Source of the DNA: Vitreimonas flagellata
Lineage (GTDB): Bacteria > Pseudomonadota > Alphaproteobacteria > Caulobacterales > Aquidulcibacteraceae
NCBI RefSeq assembly: GCF_004634425.1
Contig: NZ_SBJL01000001.1
Coordinates: 593,001-657,000, forward strand
DNA: 64,000 nt
Reading direction: 5' to 3'
Position 1 is the stretch's first letter; each line of letters starts with the position of its first letter. A model generated the notes under the pieces. The model did not search any database. It had not been told where the DNA came from and worked only from the letters and a program-made list of their open reading frames with translations. Both the position numbers and the translations under genes were made by a program. Positions 33,233 through 43,640 of this stretch are shown piece after piece.

Positions 33233-33259
33233 GCTCCTGCCCCGCGCCGTTGGCCCAAT

Positions 33260-33346
33260 GCCCCAGTGGCGGAATCGGTAGACGCAGCAGACTCAAAATC
33301 TGCCGTAGGCAACTACGTGCCCGTTCGAGTCGGGCCTGGGGCACCA
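33260..33346 (+). tRNA. tRNA-Leu (anticodon CAA)
   Basis: An 87-nt class II tRNA with the 7-bp acceptor stem GCCCCAG/CTGGGGC, D-arm GGAATCGGTAGAC, anticodon stem GCAGA/TCTGC with loop CTCAAAA (anticodon CAA at 33294-33296), a long variable arm CGTAGGCAACTACG, T-loop TTCGAGT and encoded 3' CCA. It reads UUG codons. Confidence 0.98.
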
Positions 33347-33420
33347 TTTCTCATTTTGACGCCGCCCCCGCCGCGGGCAGGATGCCCGCGATCGGCGAGT
33401 CACGCCGGCGGGGGGATTTC

Positions 33421-34869
33421 GTGAGCCAGACTGACATCGCAGTCGAAGAAACCGGATTCGGCCGGATCGGGCGTTGGGTCGGCCTCATCCTCGGCCCTGC
33501 CGTCGCCATCGGTCTTCAACTCGTGCCGCCGCCGGAAGGGCTCTCGGTGGAAGCTTGGCGCGTCGTTTCGCTCGCGGCGCTCATGGTGATCTGGTGGGTG
33601 ACGGAAGCGATTCCGATCGCCGCCACCGCCATGCTGCCGCTGGCGGCGCTACCCCTCCTTGGCGCAAGCAGCATGAAGGATGCCGCCGCGCCCTACGCTG
33701 ATCCGATCGTCTATCTCTTCATCGGCGGCTTCATCTTGGCCGCCTGCGTCGAACGCTGGCGACTGCACGAGCGCATCGCACTTTCGATTGCCTCTGTAGC
33801 CGGCGGGCGCCCGATTGCGCTGGTCGCGGGCTTTATGATCGCGTCTGCGCTGATCTCGATGTGGATCTCAAACACGGCGACCACCTTAATGCTCGCGCCC
33901 ATCGCCATCGGCGCAGCGCGCGCGCTTTCCATCGATGGCAAGCCCGATATGGCGCTCGGTGGGGCGCTGACGCTCGGTGTCGCGCATGCGGCAAGTATTG
34001 GCGGCGTCGGCACACCGGTGGGCTCGCCAACCAATCTGATCGGCATCGCGTTCTTCGAACGCGCCGGTGAGCCGATCGCCTTCATCGACTGGATGGCGAA
34101 AGCGCTGCCGCTCGTTTTGCCGATGCTGGTGCTGGCCTGGTTCTTCCTGTGCTGGCCGCTGTTTGGCCGCACCGCGCACGCCAAGTTCGACGCCATCGGC
34201 GCGGTGGTGAAAGACGCGCTCAAAGCGCTTGGCCCCATGACTCAGCCGGAGCTGCGTATCGGCATTGTTTTCGCGCTCGTTGCGCTCGCTTGGATGACCC
34301 GCACCTTGTTGGTTGAACTGCCAGGGCTTAGCGCGCTCACGGACACCGGGATCGCCATCATTGGCGCGCTTGCGCTGTTCTTCATTCCGTCTGGTCGCGC
34401 GCGTGAAGAGAAGCTTTTGGATTGGAAGACGGCCGAACGCATTCCCTGGGGCATCGCCGTGCTGTTCGGCGGCGGGCTCTCGCTCGCGGGCGCCATGGAA
34501 AGCACGGGACTGGCCGGCTGGATCGGCGATTGGATCGCGGGGCTCGACGGGGTCTCCGCGCTTGGGCTCGTCGCCGTGTTGGTCGTGGCGACCATTCTGA
34601 TCTCGGAACTCGCCAGCAACGTCGCCACGCTGACATCGATGTTGCCGGTCGTGGCTGCGGTCGCCAGCGCGACCGATACGCCGTTGCAGCCCTTGGCGTT
34701 TCCAGTGGCGATCGCCGCAAGCTTTGCCTTCATGCTGCCGGTGGCGACAGCGCCGAATGCGATCGCTTATTCGTCAGGGTTGTTGACGCTCAAGCGCATG
34801 CTCACGGTTGGCCTTGGTCTCAACATCGCGGCGGCGGTGCTGATCATCGCGTTCGCGGCGGCGGCTTAG
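33421..34869 (+). CDS. SLC13/DASS family anion transporter
   Basis: A 482-residue inner-membrane permease with about 11-12 hydrophobic segments, related to Na+-coupled dicarboxylate or sulfate carriers. Two SNT-type substrate motifs are visible: SNTATTLMLAP near residue 155 and SNVATLTSMLPV near 398. GTG 33421 is chosen because it has GGGGGGA 6 bases upstream; the open frame runs back into the tRNA gene but codes nothing sensible there. Substrate unknown. It ends with stop codons interlocked with gshB. Confidence 0.9.
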   Translation: MSQTDIAVEETGFGRIGRWVGLILGPAVAIGLQLVPPPEGLSVEAWRVVSLAALMVIWWVTEAIPIAATAMLPLAALPLLGASSMKDAAAPYADPIVYLFIGGFILAACVERWRLHERIALSIASVAGGRPIALVAGFMIASALISMWISNTATTLMLAPIAIGAARALSIDGKPDMALGGALTLGVAHAASIGGVGTPVGSPTNLIGIAFFERAGEPIAFIDWMAKALPLVLPMLVLAWFFLCWPLFGRTAHAKFDAIGAVVKDALKALGPMTQPELRIGIVFALVALAWMTRTLLVELPGLSALTDTGIAIIGALALFFIPSGRAREEKLLDWKTAERIPWGIAVLFGGGLSLAGAMESTGLAGWIGDWIAGLDGVSALGLVAVLVVATILISELASNVATLTSMLPVVAAVASATDTPLQPLAFPVAIAASFAFMLPVATAPNAIAYSSGLLTLKRMLTVGLGLNIAAAVLIIAFAAAA

Positions 34870-35804
34870 GCGAGCCCTTCGACCTTGTCCCAAAACGCTT
34901 TGGGCAGGTCGAGACCGGTGAAGCGCTTCAGCTCTTGCACCAGCGTCGGCGAGGTCACGTTGATCTCGATGAGCTTGCCGGCGATCACGTCGAGACCGGC
35001 GAAGAGAATGCCTTCTTGCTTCAACAGCGGCGCGACGGCAGCGGCGATGCGACGATCGTTTTCATCGACCTCAGCCGGTTCGGCGATGCCGCCGGCGTGC
35101 AGATTGGCGCGGAAATCGCCGCCTTGCGGCATGCGGCGGATGGCGCCGAATGGTTCGCCGTCGAGCACGAACAGGCGCTTATCGCCGCCGCTGACGGCTG
35201 GCATGAATTCTTGCGCCAGGATCGGCTCGCGGCCCGCCGCGTCCATGAATTTTCCAGCACGCGCACGGAAATCCGGATCGCTGGACTTGAGTTTGATCAC
35301 GCCGTCGCCGCCCATCAGGTAGAGCACTTTCAGCACCACCTGATCGAAGCGCTTGGCGAAATCCACCAAAGCATCGAGATCGCGTCCCACCCACGTCTTC
35401 GGCGTGAGTTCGGGGAAATACATGATCGACATCTTCTCGGAGATGTTACGCACCGCGCGCGGCGGATTGAGCACGCGCGCTTTGGTCAGCTCCAAGAAAT
35501 AGGTGTTCGACACGTAACCCATGTCGAAGGGCGGATCCTGACGGATCAGGATCACGTCGAAATCATCAAGCGCGCGGATCGCGGTCTCGAGATTTTCGTA
35601 GTGCTTGGCTTCGTTGAGACTAACCGACGCGCGCCGCGCCCGCGCCTTCACCACGCCGGCATCGAAGAACACGTCGTTCGGCGTGAACCACCAGGTCTCG
35701 TGGCCACGGTTCTGCGCCTCGATCATCAGCGCAAGCGAAGTGTCACGCTGCACCACCATCGTTTCGATGGGGTCCATTTGCACGGCGATACGGAGCGACT
35801 TCAT
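34866..35804 (-). CDS. gshB: Glutathione synthase
   Basis: ATP-grasp ligase that joins gamma-glutamylcysteine and glycine. The 312 residues start [16 protein letters not shown], with LIRQDPPFDMGYV near 92-104, VLKVLYLMGGDGVIKL near 160-175 and ENDRRIAAA... LFAGLDVIAGKLIEINVTSPT at the end, all standard for GshB. The start shares one base with the upstream aroG stop (TGATG), so the two are co-translated, although the pathways differ. Confidence 0.97.
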   Translation of the reverse strand: MKSLRIAVQMDPIETMVVQRDTSLALMIEAQNRGHETWWFTPNDVFFDAGVVKARARRASVSLNEAKHYENLETAIRALDDFDVILIRQDPPFDMGYVSNTYFLELTKARVLNPPRAVRNISEKMSIMYFPELTPKTWVGRDLDALVDFAKRFDQVVLKVLYLMGGDGVIKLKSSDPDFRARAGKFMDAAGREPILAQEFMPAVSGGDKRLFVLDGEPFGAIRRMPQGGDFRANLHAGGIAEPAEVDENDRRIAAAVAPLLKQEGILFAGLDVIAGKLIEINVTSPTLVQELKRFTGLDLPKAFWDKVEGLA

Positions 35805-37180
35805 CACCCGGCTTTCGCCTGCTTCCCGTTGGTCCGGGCGCCGCGCAGCTGCTCGGCGATCAAGAACGCCAGATCGAGTGCTTGCGTGCCGTTGAGGCGT
35901 GGATCGCAATGGGTGTGATAGCGGCTGGAGAGATCGCCTTCCGTCACAGCGGCCGCGCCGCCCAAGCATTCCGTCACCTGCTGGCCCGTCATCTCAACGT
36001 GCACGCCGCCCGGATAGGCGCCTTCGGCCGGAAGCACGTCCGTGAACGAACGCACTTCGGAGAGAATGCGATCGAACGGGCGGGTTTTGTAGCCGCCGTC
36101 CGTCTTCAGCGTGTTGCCGTGCATCGGGTCGCACGACCACACGACGCTACGGCCTTCCTTCACCACCGCGCGCACGAGTTTCGGCAGGCCGGCTTCGACC
36201 TTGTCTGAACCAAAGCGCGCGATGAGCGTGAGGCGGCCCGGCTCGTTCGCCGGATTCAGCGCATCGATCAAACGCAAGAGATCGTCCGGCTCAAGCGACG
36301 GGCCGCACTTCATGCCGATCGGGTTCTTGATGCCGCGCATGAATTCGACGTGCGCGCCGTCGAGTTGGCGGGTGCGGTCGCCGATCCAGAGCATGTGCGC
36401 GCTGGTGTCGTAATAATCGCCGCTCGTGGAATCGACGCGCGTCATCGCCTCTTCGTAGCCAAGCAGCAACGCTTCGTGGCTTGTATAGACGTCGACGTGC
36501 TTCATCTGCGGCACGCTTTCCGGCGTGATCCCACAGGCGCCCATAAACGCCACCGCTTCGGAGATGCGATCGGCGATTTCCTGATAGCGTTTGCCTTGTG
36601 GGCTATCGGCGACGAAGCCGACCATCCAGCGATGCACATTGTGCAGATCAGCGTAGCCGCCGTTCGCGAAGGCGCGGATCAGGTTCAGCGTCGATGCCGA
36701 TTGGCCGTAAGCCTTCAGCAGACGCTCCGGATCGGGAATGCGCGCCTCCGGCGTGAATTCCATGCCGTTGATGTTGTCGCCGCGATAGGATGGCAGCGTC
36801 ACGCCATCGATGGTCTCAATCGGCTCAGAACGCGGCTTACCGAATTGGCCGGCGATACGACCAACCTTCACCACTGGGCGCGACGCCGCGAACGTCAGCA
36901 CGACGCTCATCGCCATCAGCGTGCGGAAGGTGTCGCGGATATTGTCGGGGTGGAATTCCTTGAAGCTCTCGGCGCAATCGCCGCCCTGCAGCAGGAACGC
37001 CTTGCCCTCGGCCACCTGCCCAAGCTGCGCCTTCAAATTGCGCGCCTCGCCCGCAAACACGAGCGGCGGATAAGAGCGCAGCGTCTGCTCAACGCGCGTG
37101 AGCGCGTCGGCGTCCGGGTAATCGGTCGGGATGTGCTTGGCGGGTTTTGAGCGCCAGCCGGCGGGGGTCCATTTCTGCAT
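35804..37180 (-). CDS. Class II 3-deoxy-7-phosphoheptulonate synthase
   Basis: First enzyme of the shikimate pathway (PEP plus erythrose 4-phosphate), and so the ultimate source of chorismate for trpE in this window. The 458 residues show plant-like class II features: [11 protein letters not shown] near 63, [21 protein letters not shown]-like region near 250 and [16 protein letters not shown] near 289. Start ATG 37180 with [16 protein letters not shown] is typical. It is in a probable operon with gshB. Confidence 0.96.
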
Positions 37181-37224: not shown

Positions 37225-38517
37225 TCACCCGAACATGGGCGCCAAAAGCGGCGTCACAAGGAACCACACCGCCGCAGCAGCGGCAGTCGCTGCAAAGGCT
37301 GCGCCAAAATAGAGCACTCCGTAACGCCAGCCGCCGGTAACCAAAGCGATGCCGCCCTTGGCCGACGTGTTCATCAACACGGCGATCATCACGGCGTGTG
37401 CGCCGACGCTTGCTTCGAGCCCGCCGCGCACGAGGCTTCCCGCCGCGAGCGTCACGGCATCGACATCCGCCACGCCAGCTGTGGCCGCGAACGGCAACAA
37501 GCCAGCTTCACCGAAGGTCTCAGCCACGATGCGGCCAACGATAATCACCGCGCCCAAGAAGACCGCGAATTGCGCGACAGAGACGAGATCGAGCGGGCTG
37601 CGAAGCTTCTCCATCGAGCCGCCGCCAGTCCCATTTTTCTTGAGCCCGCGCATCAGGAAAGCCGCGCCAGCAAAGGCCAAAACAGCGGCGCCGAGCGCGG
37701 GCCCGGCCTCCCGCAGTAGCGGCGGCGCCGTGATCGCGAGGAGGATGATGACACGGCTCACGCTGATCGCAGCCGCGATTGAAGCGGCGGCGCCGCCGAC
37801 TGACGCGTGCGTCTCGCCCTTGCGCACTTGGCGGCCGAGCTCCGCCGTCACCACAGTCGACGAGACAAGCGAACCGGCCGCCGCACCGGCAAGCACGCCA
37901 ACGTCGCTGCCCAGCACGCGCACAGCCACGTAGCCCGCGAACGATGCCCCCGCGACGAGAATGGTGAGCAACCAAAGCTCGCGCGGATTGATGGCCTGCC
38001 ATGGATCGACCGTCCGGTCGGGCAGCAATGGAAGAGCGATTGCCGTGGCCGCCAAAATGATCAGCGCCGAGCGCAGCTCTTTCCAGGTGATCTTGTCGAG
38101 CCAACCGTGCAGGGCGTCCTTGAACGCGAGCAGCGCCACGAGCGTCACGCCGACGGCGGCGGCGATACGCAGATCGCCCCACATCGAATAGGCGCCTAGA
38201 GCGAAGACCAGTAGGCCAGCGATCGTCCCCGTCACGGAGAGGTCGTCGTCTTTCAGGCTCTCGCGGACCTTGAACACGATGAACGCCGCCGCGAACGCCA
38301 AAGTCAGCGCAGCGAAGCCGATCTCTCCGAGCGCGGGCAGCATGGCCCCGGCCATGCCCCCGCTGAGGCCGATGACCGCATGCGTCCGCAAACCAGCCGC
38401 GCGCGAACCGTCTGGCGCGTCGCGATGACGCCAGCCGCGCTCGATCCCGACCATGAAGCCAATGCCGAGCGCCATCGCCAGGCGCTGGAACATTTCGATC
38501 AGGAGCGGCTCAGGCAT
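37225..38517 (-). CDS. MgtC/SapB-DUF4010 membrane protein
   Basis: A 430-residue protein with an N-terminal MgtC-like membrane domain (about 1-140; MALGIGFMVGIERGWRHR near 12-30 is the signature) and a C-terminal DUF4010 membrane domain (about 190-425). Members of this architecture are of unknown function; MgtC itself is linked to Mg2+ stress. ATG 38517 is preferred over 38559, which would prepend a polar stretch. It is divergent from the TIR/ParA gene across 116 bases. Confidence 0.88.
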   Translation of the reverse strand: MPEPLLIEMFQRLAMALGIGFMVGIERGWRHRDAPDGSRAAGLRTHAVIGLSGGMAGAMLPALGEIGFAALTLAFAAAFIVFKVRESLKDDDLSVTGTIAGLLVFALGAYSMWGDLRIAAAVGVTLVALLAFKDALHGWLDKITWKELRSALIILAATAIALPLLPDRTVDPWQAINPRELWLLTILVAGASFAGYVAVRVLGSDVGVLAGAAAGSLVSSTVVTAELGRQVRKGETHASVGGAAASIAAAISVSRVIILLAITAPPLLREAGPALGAAVLAFAGAAFLMRGLKKNGTGGGSMEKLRSPLDLVSVAQFAVFLGAVIIVGRIVAETFGEAGLLPFAATAGVADVDAVTLAAGSLVRGGLEASVGAHAVMIAVLMNTSAKGGIALVTGGWRYGVLYFGAAFAATAAAAAVWFLVTPLLAPMFG

Positions 38518-38633
38518 GTCTCGGCAATTCTTGCGTTGGGGCGGGGTTCCCCTGTGCACCCCCGGTTGTGGGGTCGCATGGACAAGGCGTAATGCGCCCG
38601 CTTAGGGTCGCCAACAGGGGTGGTTAAATTCTT

Positions 38634-39899
38634 ATGGCGAATGCGTATCTCGCCTTCGAACAGGCCGACGAGGACCAGGCGCGCGCCATCGCCGCCGAAC
38701 TCGAACGCAATGGTTGGACGGTGACGCCGTCGAGTGGCGATCTGCGACAAGCCGAGAAGCTGCCCGCTTTGGTGCAGACAATTGGTGAATCCAATTTGTT
38801 CGTGGTGCTCGCGTCGCGCGCGAGCGCTGAGAGCCAGTGGCTGCAGCGCGAGGTCGCCGCCGCCCTCAACAATGGTCGCCCGATCGTCATCGCGCAGACG
38901 GACGATCTGCCCAATGAGTCCTGGATTCACGCCACACTCGACACTAGCCACGCCGTTCTGCTGGGCCAGGGCGTCGAGGCGCTCGCCAAGATCGCCGACG
39001 CCGCGCGCACGGCAAAAAGCGGCGGTCGCGTGCTGACGATGCTCAACATCAAGGGCGGCGTCGGCAAGACCGTGCTGGCGGCCAATCTGTTTGCGGCGGC
39101 GCACTTGGCGAATAAGCGCTCGATCGCGTTCATCGATCTCGATCCGCAGCACAATCTGACACAGTATTTCTTGTCGCCCGGCGAACGCCACCGAATCCGC
39201 GATCGCAATCACACCATTTATGGCGTGCTGAATGCCCGCGGAGATCATAGCGTGCCGGCGCAGGATTTGGGCGGCATCGCCATTCCGCTCAACCGGGCGC
39301 GCAAGGGCAAAGACAAGGACATCAATTTCGAACTGGTCGCCGGCGACGAGCGTCTGTTTGAGTTCACCCTGGATACACGTTCGGACCAGGATAAGGCTGC
39401 CGCCTTCTTGCGTTTCCGTGCGTTGGTGGCGGCGCTACGCGCGCGCAATGACGCCGTGATCATCGATTCCAACCCCTGCGCCACGTTCTTAACGCGCCTG
39501 GCCATCACCACGGCCGATCACATCATCGCCCCTGTCAGGCCGGAGAAATATTCGCTCACCGGTTTGAACATGCTCGAGCACGTGGTTCGCGAAGTAAGAG
39601 GCAGGGCCTTGCGGTCGTCGGAGTTTTCAGTGCTGCTGAACGGGGTGAACGACCGCACCCGATCTGGCGAAACTGGCGACGCCGACGCGCTGACGCGCGG
39701 CGAGATTAGCGCTGCGCCCTTCTTCAGCGGTGCGTTGCTGGCTGAGGAAATCCCCTATTCGGCCGTGCTCAAATCGGCGCCGAGCGATCGCCTGGCTGCC
39801 AACCCGATCAATGTCACCGCCATGATGCGCGTCGGCGGCCGGCCCGCAAAGGAAGCGCTGACCAACGCCGCCGCCGCCATTCTGAGGCGCGCGCAATGA
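38634..39899 (+). CDS. TIR-like domain fused to ParA/MinD-type ATPase
   Basis: A 421-residue two-domain protein. Residues 1-112 read as a TIR-like fold: a first strand AYLAFEQADEDQA (4-16), an amphipathic helix, a SNLFVVLASRASAESQWL strand/turn (53-70) and the W69-x3-E73 motif followed by GRPIVIAQTDD, matching the region of the catalytic Glu in SARM1-type NAD hydrolases. Residues 132-420 form a deviant-Walker ATPase: K140-GGVGK-T146, switch I DLDPQ (168-172) and Walker B VIIDSNP (275-281). It overlaps the next gene by 4 nt. Function is unknown; defence, partition or positioning are all possible. No mobile-element signs flank it. Confidence 0.85.
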   Translation: MANAYLAFEQADEDQARAIAAELERNGWTVTPSSGDLRQAEKLPALVQTIGESNLFVVLASRASAESQWLQREVAAALNNGRPIVIAQTDDLPNESWIHATLDTSHAVLLGQGVEALAKIADAARTAKSGGRVLTMLNIKGGVGKTVLAANLFAAAHLANKRSIAFIDLDPQHNLTQYFLSPGERHRIRDRNHTIYGVLNARGDHSVPAQDLGGIAIPLNRARKGKDKDINFELVAGDERLFEFTLDTRSDQDKAAAFLRFRALVAALRARNDAVIIDSNPCATFLTRLAITTADHIIAPVRPEKYSLTGLNMLEHVVREVRGRALRSSEFSVLLNGVNDRTRSGETGDADALTRGEISAAPFFSGALLAEEIPYSAVLKSAPSDRLAANPINVTAMMRVGGRPAKEALTNAAAAILRRAQ

Positions 39900-40309
39900 A
39901 GCTCGACGCGACCCAAACCAAATTGCTGCGCACCGCCTTCAAAGGCCGATCGCGCGCTGAACTGAAGAAGCTCTTCGCTCTCATCCGCACCAGCGAGGAC
40001 CGCGCGCTCCTCGCCGCCGCTCTCCCGAAGAAGAAGGTCGCGCCGAAGCGCAAGGGCGACCCGCTGGTGCGTGAGTTGGAGCAAACGCTGAAGCCGATCA
40101 TGGGGCCGTCGGTCGAGAAGGCCGACATGCTGATCGAGCACATCGCCAAGAAGCATCGCCGCAAGCTCGGCATCGAGCCGAAGGGTATCGCCGACGCCGC
40201 CAAGCGCCTGCGCGCCAGCAAGTTTACGGACGAGCAAATCCGCGCAGGGGCCCAAAGCCTGATGGCGCATCTGGCCAAGCTCTACGGCGACCGCGAGACG
40301 GTGGTGTAA
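39896..40309 (+). CDS. Small basic helical protein, partner of the TIR/ParA gene
   Basis: An unrecognised 137-residue protein, predicted helical and strongly basic. Two helical parts (about 1-43 and 55-130) are joined by a lysine-rich linker (KKKVAPKRK at 45-53), and KKHRRK at 85-90 is a second basic patch. There is no signal peptide or membrane segment. The start lies in the stop of the TIR/ParA gene (ATGA), so the two are made together. Its size and charge resemble small DNA-binding partners of ParA ATPases, but that is inference. msrB follows after 50 nt. Confidence 0.82.
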   Translation: MKLDATQTKLLRTAFKGRSRAELKKLFALIRTSEDRALLAAALPKKKVAPKRKGDPLVRELEQTLKPIMGPSVEKADMLIEHIAKKHRRKLGIEPKGIADAAKRLRASKFTDEQIRAGAQSLMAHLAKLYGDRETVV

Positions 40310-42046: not shown

Positions 42047-42538
42047 ATGGCTGAGTCGAAAAAAGCGCTCTGGCGCGCAGGCGAAATCCAACCGGCGCTG
42101 CGGCCCTTCACACAAAAGCTCAATCCCAATTCGCTCTTCCGCGCAGCTGGCCTATCGCGCCTCGCCGGCATGAGCCGCGCACATGTGAGCCTCGTGAAGC
42201 TGCCGCCTGGCAAGGATAGCTTCGCCTATCATGCGCACATGCTCGAAGAGGAATGGATCTACATGATCTCGGGTCGCGCCATCGCGGTGATCGACGGCAA
42301 GGAAACCGAGGTCGGCCCCGGCGACTTCATGGGCTTCGCCACGCCGTCCGTGCCGCATCTCTTGCGCAACACGTTTGACGAAGAATGCATCTATCTGATG
42401 GGCGGCGAAGACAAACCGATCGACGTTGTCGACTACCCCGAGATCGGCAAACGCTATTTGCAAATGCAGACGGTGAAGGGCGCCGAGTTTTACGAGCTTG
42501 GCGAGCCGACCAATCCGTACGGCAAAGCGCAGGACTAG
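42047..42538 (+). CDS. Cupin domain protein
   Basis: A 163-residue single-domain cupin of unknown substrate. VKLPPGKDSFAYHAHMLEEEWIYMISG near 50-76 is the metal-binding motif 1 (His-x-His, Glu) and PGDFMGFATPSVPHLLRN near 95-112 contains the second-motif His. A GAGGTG ribosome site precedes the ATG. It lies 35 nt downstream of bpt and ends in stop codons interlocked with the lipoprotein gene. Confidence 0.85.
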   Translation: MAESKKALWRAGEIQPALRPFTQKLNPNSLFRAAGLSRLAGMSRAHVSLVKLPPGKDSFAYHAHMLEEEWIYMISGRAIAVIDGKETEVGPGDFMGFATPSVPHLLRNTFDEECIYLMGGEDKPIDVVDYPEIGKRYLQMQTVKGAEFYELGEPTNPYGKAQD

Positions 42539-43059
42539 AGCACCACACCTTCTTGCGTGCGCGCGCCGTGCGGCGCGTTGAAGCCGAACGTGGCGCAGAG
42601 GCGGCTTTGCGTTGCCGCAGAGCTGGGCGGCTCCTCGCCGGTGAACACCAGCACTGTCACACGCGTCGCGCGCTCTTCATAAACCAGCGCCGCATATTCC
42701 GGCCGATCATCACCGCACAAACTGGGCGCGCCTTCGCGTAGCGTGACGTCCGTGACGCGGCGCAATTCGACGTGCAGATCGGCTGTGCCAACTGCAATGG
42801 CGGCGTATGAGTCTCCGGCTTGCGCCGTCAAATCGTAGCCACGGCGTGGCTCAAGCGTGCGCGTGTAAAGGATCGCGCCTTTGCTGAACATCAAGCCCGC
42901 GCGTTCGATCGAGAGATCACCCGTATAATAGCGCGCGGTATCGGACGCGGCGACATAGCGGCCGCTGAGTTCGCGCGCCGCCTGCGGTTCGTCGCGCACA
43001 GCGCGCGTTTCGCCGCACGCGGCGACAACGAGACAAAGAGCGGCGAATGCAAAGCGCAT
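42535..43059 (-). CDS. Putative lipoprotein, paralogue A
   Basis: A 174-residue predicted lipoprotein: the signal MRFAFAALCLVVAAC ends in a lipobox with Cys15. The mature part shows beta-rich repeats and two Cys. LCGDDRPEYAALVYEE, VTVLVFTGEEPP and SRLCATFGF align with the next gene (LCGDQTPTFVVL, LSVLVFSGIEPP, TSLCGIFNF), so the two are tandem paralogues. Function unknown. Confidence 0.78.
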   Translation of the reverse strand: MRFAFAALCLVVAACGETRAVRDEPQAARELSGRYVAASDTARYYTGDLSIERAGLMFSKGAILYTRTLEPRRGYDLTAQAGDSYAAIAVGTADLHVELRRVTDVTLREGAPSLCGDDRPEYAALVYEERATRVTVLVFTGEEPPSSAATQSRLCATFGFNAPHGARTQEGVVL

Positions 43060-43130
43060 GAGCGGAATTTATGCGTCCCGCGCGCCCATGCCGACCCCGC
43101 CCCGTCGCTTTGTCAGCACGGCTCGTCGCG

Positions 43131-43640
43131 TCACCCCGGCACAAAATTGAAGATACCACACAGCGACGTCGCCGCGGCGCCCGCGCCCGGTGGTTCGATC
43201 CCAGAGAACACCAGCACCGAGAGCGCATCCCCGCCACGCGCCAGCACAACGAAGGTCGGCGTCTGGTCGCCGCACAATTGCGGCGCGGCCGCGTCAGCAG
43301 CGACGCGCACCAGCGCGATCTGGCGCAATTCCATCGTCTCGATCGATTGATTGCCGGTGGCGTCGGCGAAGGAGCCCTGACCGGCCGCGAGTTCGCTCGT
43401 CGGGCCAAGTGCTGCGTCCACGCGCGCGCCCTCGATGCGGAAGCCGCGACCAAAGCTCAGCACGTCTGCCGTCACGTCCAGATCGCCGGTGATCGACATC
43501 GCCGTCGTCGAGACCGCCGTGAACGTGCCCGTGATCGAGGGAGCAGGCGCCGCCGCACGCGGCGCGCTCTCCGTCGGCGGCGTCGCCGTTTGGCCGCAGG
43601 CGGCGAGTGCGAAGCCAAGGGCCAGGATCAAGCGCTTCAT
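43131..43640 (-). CDS. Putative lipoprotein, paralogue B
   Basis: A 169-residue predicted lipoprotein with signal MKRLILALGFALAAC (lipobox Cys15) and an Ala/Pro-rich linker (about 16-34). The C-terminal half shares LCGD-x2-P, VLVFSG-x-EPP and LCG-x-F-x-F with the adjacent paralogue A; the paired Cys probably form a disulfide. The two genes are 71 nt apart on the same strand. Function unknown. Confidence 0.78.
   Translation of the reverse strand: MKRLILALGFALAACGQTATPPTESAPRAAAPAPSITGTFTAVSTTAMSITGDLDVTADVLSFGRGFRIEGARVDAALGPTSELAAGQGSFADATGNQSIETMELRQIALVRVAADAAAPQLCGDQTPTFVVLARGGDALSVLVFSGIEPPGAGAAATSLCGIFNFVPG

Follow-up and report, generated by a model that had tools for sequence, protein, structure and literature searches.

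A TIR domain fused to a ParA-type ATPase in Caulobacterales: a candidate two-gene ATP-switch module with fixed and relocated copies

RESULTS

A TIR-ParA fusion gene

The 64,000-nucleotide stretch of Vitreimonas flagellata DNA analyzed here (the window) encodes a TIR domain fused to a ParA/MinD-type ATPase, followed directly by a small partner gene. We give about an even chance to the reading that the two genes form an ATP-switch module, of which copies relocated in the genome probably act as NADase defense systems and copies fixed beside the DAHP synthase gene aroG carry the TIR mainly as an interaction domain. The fusion gene and its parts are as follows.

38634..39899 (+): TIR-ParA fusion gene, 421 aa (open reading frame and Pfam)
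38634..38969 (+): TIR domain, residues 1 to 112 (Pfam TIR_2; family profile against SARM1 TIR chains)
38838..38852 (+): W69-L-Q-R-E73, aligned with WVHKE of SARM1 (profile alignment, residue counts)
39021..39896 (+): ParA/MinD-type ATPase domain, residues 130 to 421 (AAA_31, CbiA; PDB matches to Soj, McdA, and MipZ)
39051..39071 (+): deviant Walker A, KGGVGKT, residues 140 to 146 (six counted residues identical in 78/78 homologues)
39135..39149 (+): Walker A', DLDPQ, residues 168 to 172 (three counted residues identical in 78/78)
39456..39467 (+): Walker B, VIID, with D278 (identical in 78/78)

The original prediction, made from this sequence alone, placed two unlike modules in one open reading frame, and profile searches confirm the fusion at the sequence level. 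In Pfam, TIR_2 scores 41.4 bits against a cut-off of 28 (residues 6 to 90), AAA_31 scores 80.6 against 27 (residues 132 to 324), and CbiA scores 45.2 against 25.4. The fusion protein also passes the cut-off of ThsB_TIR (PF08937; 26.2 against 21.2) and falls below that of PF01582 TIR (16.9 against 21.3). The TIR_2 cut-off is likewise passed by 9 of the 10 other homologues scanned, the exception being L057 with 22.0 bits. A profile made from 21 TIR segments of the family matches SARM1 TIR chains at an E value of ~4e-9, and the window's TIR as a single sequence gives weak PDB matches (best recognizable TIR protein, E 0.18). The family profile 'ewvqrevaaAlnngkpiipv' is aligned with SARM1 'WVHKEIVTALSCGKNIVPI', and over the 85 aligned profile positions W69-x3-E73 is in register with WVHKE, the Glu of which we take to be the catalytic Glu642. 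These profiles support a TIR fold for residues 1 to 112 and agree with the predicted match of W69-x3-E73 to the catalytic-Glu region of SARM1.

The deviant-Walker ATPase is complete, as had been predicted. Of 14 key positions in this domain, 13 have one and the same residue across all 78 homologues, including K140, G141, G142, G144, K145, and T146 of Walker A, D168, D170, and Q172 of Walker A', and D278 of Walker B (VIIDSNP, residues 275 to 281); T287 is found in 77 of 78. A deviant Walker A with its signature lysine, together with Walker A' and Walker B, assigns the domain to the ParA/MinD ATPases, and this part of the fusion matches Soj, McdA, and MipZ chains in the PDB. Matches to the NCBIfam partition equivalogs fall far short, with 73.7 bits for NF041546 (cut-off 180) and 50.6 bits for TIGR03453 (cut-off 348).

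The partner gene

Overlooked in the original prediction, a second gene overlaps the stop codon of TIR-ParA with its start.

39896..40309 (+): partner gene, predicted helical protein of 137 aa (open reading frame; start overlaps the TIR-ParA stop, ATGA)

The model of the partner has seven helices (pLDDT 82.7, pTM 0.52). The protein has no Pfam or NCBIfam match at an E value of 1 and no significant sequence relative in the PDB (best E 0.14). Its first 30 residues include 8 Lys/Arg and 2 Asp/Glu, which agrees with the charged N terminus that PMC10241942 describes for partner proteins. By analogy with the proteins treated there, the partner is probably a regulator or a cargo link, and its binding to TIR-ParA is predicted.

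The partner is kept in 21 of the 22 loci from the window's genus, the contig of the other (L020) stopping within TIR-ParA, and in all 6 loci from other genera of family f1. It was not detected in family f2, either in the 42 loci or in 15 whole genomes, where the same search was positive for 3 of 3 f1 genomes. Hence TIR-ParA does not need the partner in every lineage. For the seven relocated copies and the single f4 copy, the partner profile was rebuilt from 22 fixed-copy rows and searched against the 932 open reading frames of these eight loci. The best five were the genes directly 3' of TIR-ParA in L064, L103, L055, L106, and L056 (E 1.5e-19 to 0.08), and the downstream genes of L058, L104, and L105 did not stand out in this search. 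The partner of L058 is 65% identical to that of L056 over 113 columns; homology of the L105 gene is not supported.

An operon partner gene next to a ParA-type ATPase is also what McdA/McdB- or ParC-type cargo positioning would entail, with the ATPase forming a gradient on the nucleoid, the partner binding cargo, and the TIR serving as an adaptor or oligomerization domain. The ParA fold with its Soj, McdA, and MipZ relatives and the small size and N-terminal charge of the partner fit this scheme, as do the core distribution of TIR-ParA and the loss of the catalytic Glu described below. However, f2 has no detectable partner and no cargo gene lies nearby, and cargo positioning seems to us unlikely.

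A related arrangement was seen in two alphaproteobacterial loci (L256 and L257), where a TIR-less ParA close to the ATPase part is followed by a 148-aa gene and then by a ~240-aa gene with weak similarity to DUF5677. Such loci perhaps encode this type of switch with a third component on its own; no similarity to the TIR-ParA partner was detected for the 148-aa gene of L256.

Chromosomal place and distribution

The genes upstream of TIR-ParA run in the opposite direction.

35804..37180 (-): class-II DAHP synthase gene (aroG), fixed divergent neighbor (Pfam DAHP_synth_2, 699 bits)
37225..38559 (-): MgtC/DUF4010 membrane protein gene (mgtC), between aroG and TIR-ParA (Pfam)

The same DAHP_synth_2 score of 699 bits was obtained for aroG in L053. 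The aroG gene is the divergent neighbor of TIR-ParA in 21 of the 22 loci from the genus (the 22nd, L030, is too short to tell), in 6/6 loci from other f1 genera, and in all 42 f2 loci with an aroG-side copy that were fetched (58 f2 genomes match). In most genus loci, mgtC separates the two genes, and it is not between them in L015, L020, or the f2 and other f1 loci searched. In the f4 locus (L106), aroG lies 1.7 kb off with another open reading frame between. The start-to-start spacing of aroG and TIR-ParA is 136 to 163 bp in all 32 f2 loci with a computed value (the other 10 of 42 gave none), and it is 139, 151, and 152 bp in L060, L020, and L062, f1 loci where aroG adjoins directly; it reaches 672 and 630 bp in L061 and L063. 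That f1 and f2 share this spacing points to a single ancestral location. No convincing shared motif was found between aroG and TIR-ParA in 8 loci. The window's copy is thus a fixed neighbor of aroG, with no recognized defense gene among its Pfam-annotated neighbors, and the suggested association with defense islands did not hold for it.

Two other features of the window were recorded. Two adjacent small lipoprotein-like genes at 42535-43640 (-), without Pfam matches and with 32% mutual identity, form a tandem pair. The listed open reading frame of a transporter at 33250-34869 (+) starts in overlap with tRNA-Leu (33260-33346), so its true start must be further in.

The window's genome encodes one TIR-ParA; two further matches in it are simple ParA-like proteins (35 and 26% identity). 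Within the genus, TIR-ParA occurs in 23 of 30 genomes, one copy being fragmented along with its neighbors and one cut at a contig end; the 7 others retain the aroG-to-msrB stretch, from which both genes of the pair are missing together. Across the order, matches at an E value of 1e-40 occur in 90 of 398 genomes (24 from the genus, 7 from other f1 genera, 58 from f2, and 1 from f4). The f2 genus g15 has TIR-ParA in 41/42 genomes and in 37/37 of good quality. Named relatives are Hyphomonadaceae, Caulobacterales, and Terricaulis records. Samples of the class (6/385 genomes at E 1e-25, 2 full length) and of the phylum (5/398 at E 1e-35, 3 full length, all three within the order) were scored with only 4 candidates per genome, and uncommon members elsewhere may therefore have escaped detection.

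Among the matches listed from named collections of plasmids, phages, and viruses, no full-length TIR-ParA was seen. When a relocated copy served as the query, 596 plasmid records matched, one of them with at least 80% coverage; its match begins at residue 81, so it lacks most of the TIR. Of the 596 records 40 were listed, and one beyond those 40 has 60 to 80% identity. Three further plasmid queries matched 1139, 154, and 522 records, with none at 80% coverage. In phages, 14 records match, none at 80% coverage and one spanning the TIR part alone, and among the best 80 of 462 IMG/VR matches the earliest start is residue 61.

A candidate same-genus pseudogene (L022/L050/L162; Terricaulis, G015) was rejected, as TIR-ParA and several neighbors are all split by frameshifts. 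These breaks are probably assembly errors because the neighboring genes are broken too, and this copy was excluded from all counts.

Relocated copies

Seven copies (L055, L056, L058, L064, L103, L104, and L105) are relocated, with no aroG in the fetched stretch (only 2.3 kb for L104). Four of them reside in genomes that also have an aroG-side copy (G009, G024, G003, and G011). Their third-position GC ranges from 0.33 to 0.66, and that of fixed copies tracks aroG. Clear defense neighbors were found for only one relocated copy, L103. It adjoins genes for AbiTii (130.8 bits), for another TIR protein (67.4 bits), and for an integrase of the phage type, a setting of the defense-island or mobile-element kind. 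In L055, a gene for pP_pnuc_1 (pPIWI-associated nuclease; 53.3 bits) lies ~3.4 kb downstream, and L056 and L058 both adjoin dxs. Relocated copies look like the mobile, defense-like form of the family.

A 360-aa protein encoded at L058:3596-4675, ~4 kb from the relocated TIR-ParA, has a sub-threshold TIR_2 match (23 bits).

Catalytic glutamate, conservation, and phylogeny

Residues at position 73 were counted in 78 aligned proteins, all different. Glu is present in 22/22 homologues of the genus, 1/6 from other f1 genera, 0/42 from f2 (28 Asp and 14 Gln), 1/1 from f4, and 7/7 relocated copies, and is missing in 47 of the 78. Both Glu73 and an aromatic residue at position 69 are found in 20 genus homologues and in the 7 relocated copies, and in none of the other f1, f2, or f4 proteins; W69 itself is kept in 20 of the 22 genus homologues. 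Conservation of Glu73 among close homologues had been set as a test beforehand, and it holds throughout the genus, where the window's copy and all 22 homologues share with NADase TIRs a Glu aligned with that of SARM1. A generally conserved effector is not borne out, with Glu missing in 5/6 proteins from other f1 genera and 42/42 from f2. Most fixed copies agree with the alternative of a TIR that is inactive and serves for interaction, but the invariance of E73 counts against a plain interaction domain in the window's genus, although E73 is only one of 22 invariant TIR positions there.

The seven divergent relocated TIRs are invariant at only 4 of 112 positions (F5, S7, E73, and A77), and the genus TIRs at 22 of 112. 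For the TIR, mean pairwise identity in the genus is 0.61 and a rough estimate of omega is 0.22; for the ATPase, the values are 0.86 and 0.096 (omega from 118 of 120 pairs; synonymous distances near saturation). This greater variability of the TIR speaks for a chance recent fusion of two unrelated genes, with no function as a fusion. However, the order of TIR then ParA is common to all 78 aligned homologues, the TIR omega is as low as 0.22, and the partner and the position are conserved. Such a fusion is refuted by this conservation and retains almost no probability in our estimate.

The same residue counts bear on whether the module is an active defense system in the window too, in which the partner would sense phage, ParA would dimerize, and the TIR would cleave NAD. 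The presence of E73 in every genus homologue and of W69 in 20, the SARM1-like alignment of the TIR, and relatives adjoining AbiTii and an integrase speak for it. Against these stand the fixed chromosomal place with vertical spread in the order, neighbors that include no recognized defense gene, the replacement of W69 in 2/22 genus homologues, and the faster evolution of the TIR than of the ATPase. We consider active defense by the window's copy doubtful.

On a tree of the ATPase alone (38 rows, with 16/42 f2 and 8/22 genus rows kept), the Glu state requires at least 3 changes. A single clade of fixed copies is rejected on this tree (AU p 0.00098) because the relocated L064 groups with f1, a placement also found in the full-length tree (40 rows). 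From this placement, two captures at aroG or an escape of L064 from there are both possible. Among the relocated copies, several sit on long branches with poor placement, and an independent-pairs test of Glu loss against fixation comprised 2 pairs only, too few for significance.

DISCUSSION

Proposed mechanism

In the two-gene ATP-switch module that we favor, the ParA-type domain would form an ATP-sandwich dimer, which the conservation of its signature lysine and Walker motifs suggests, and dimerization would juxtapose the two N-terminal TIRs. The partner would bind the dimer and either control ATP hydrolysis or tie the dimer to a target, as ParB, MinE, and McdB do for their ATPases. In relocated copies, with the Glu and adjacent aromatic residue, the paired TIRs would probably be an NAD-cleaving effector in phage defense. 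The copy beside aroG would be a vertically inherited gene with the ATPase as its conserved part and, in fixed copies generally, a TIR that serves mainly as an interaction domain and has lost the catalytic Glu at least three times on the tree. The window's copy appears intermediate between the relocated and the other fixed copies. Its TIR may still be active, because this is the only fixed lineage with Glu in every member examined. The original interpretation, a positioning or sensor ATPase gating a TIR effector, is supported in part.

The usual gates of TIR effectors are STAND NTPases, cyclic-nucleotide sensors, or signaling partners. A ParA gate, if true, would be a different means of arming a TIR effector. 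The fixed place combined with Glu loss in many relatives suggests an immune effector turned housekeeping part. We tentatively raise the possibility of a new class of TIR immune switch in which the TIRs are paired not by a STAND NTPase but by a ParA ATP-sandwich dimer that a small partner controls. This switch would have been domesticated to an essential-like housekeeping ATPase of the order with repeated Glu loss, giving an evolutionary series that begins with an active effector and ends with a scaffold, the window's genus lying midway. Close relatives that have or lack the catalytic Glu occur naturally at one chromosomal place, and the family therefore allows the change from immune enzyme to scaffold to be tested directly. 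It also serves as a caution that a TIR match alone does not make a defense gene.

Comparison with known systems

The original prediction did not recognize the architecture as a named system. No name for it came from Pfam, NCBIfam, PHROGs, or PADLOC scans, and no description of the fusion was found in the mostly open-access full-text literature searched. The PADLOC candidate PDC-M28B is similar in having a ParA-like ATPase of ~440 aa with a similarly placed P-loop and in scoring 21 to 23 bits to three relocated copies. In contrast, the members fetched read KGGVGRS, have no TIR by eye, and reach at most 17.7 bits with the TIR-ParA profile. PDC-M28 was rejected as the identity of the window's protein, which has no PDC-M28B match at an E value of 1. 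The PDC-M28B proteins themselves (L163-L174) are KGGVGR-type ATPases, several of them followed by a large ATPase-like gene, with up to 4 matches per genome.

Thoeris ThsB resembles the family in that the TIR-like domain passes the ThsB_TIR cut-off; however, TIR-ParA is weak to the PADLOC ThsB models (13.9 bits at best) and has a ParA ATPase in place of ThsA, and none of the annotated neighbors of the window's copy is ThsA. SARM1-type and bacterial NADase TIRs share the 85-position alignment with W-x3-E in register. Unlike SARM1-type proteins, TIR-ParA is without SAM and ARM domains, is fused to a ParA ATPase, and has homologues of which more than half have no Glu (47/78). With ParA/Soj and McdA-type systems, the family has in common the deviant Walker motifs, the PDB matches, and a neighboring small partner gene; it differs from them in its N-terminal TIR, its sub-cut-off equivalog scores, and a partner outside known families. 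Within the literature and databases searched, the combination of these modules with the partner and this history is not named, and both modules are of known kinds.
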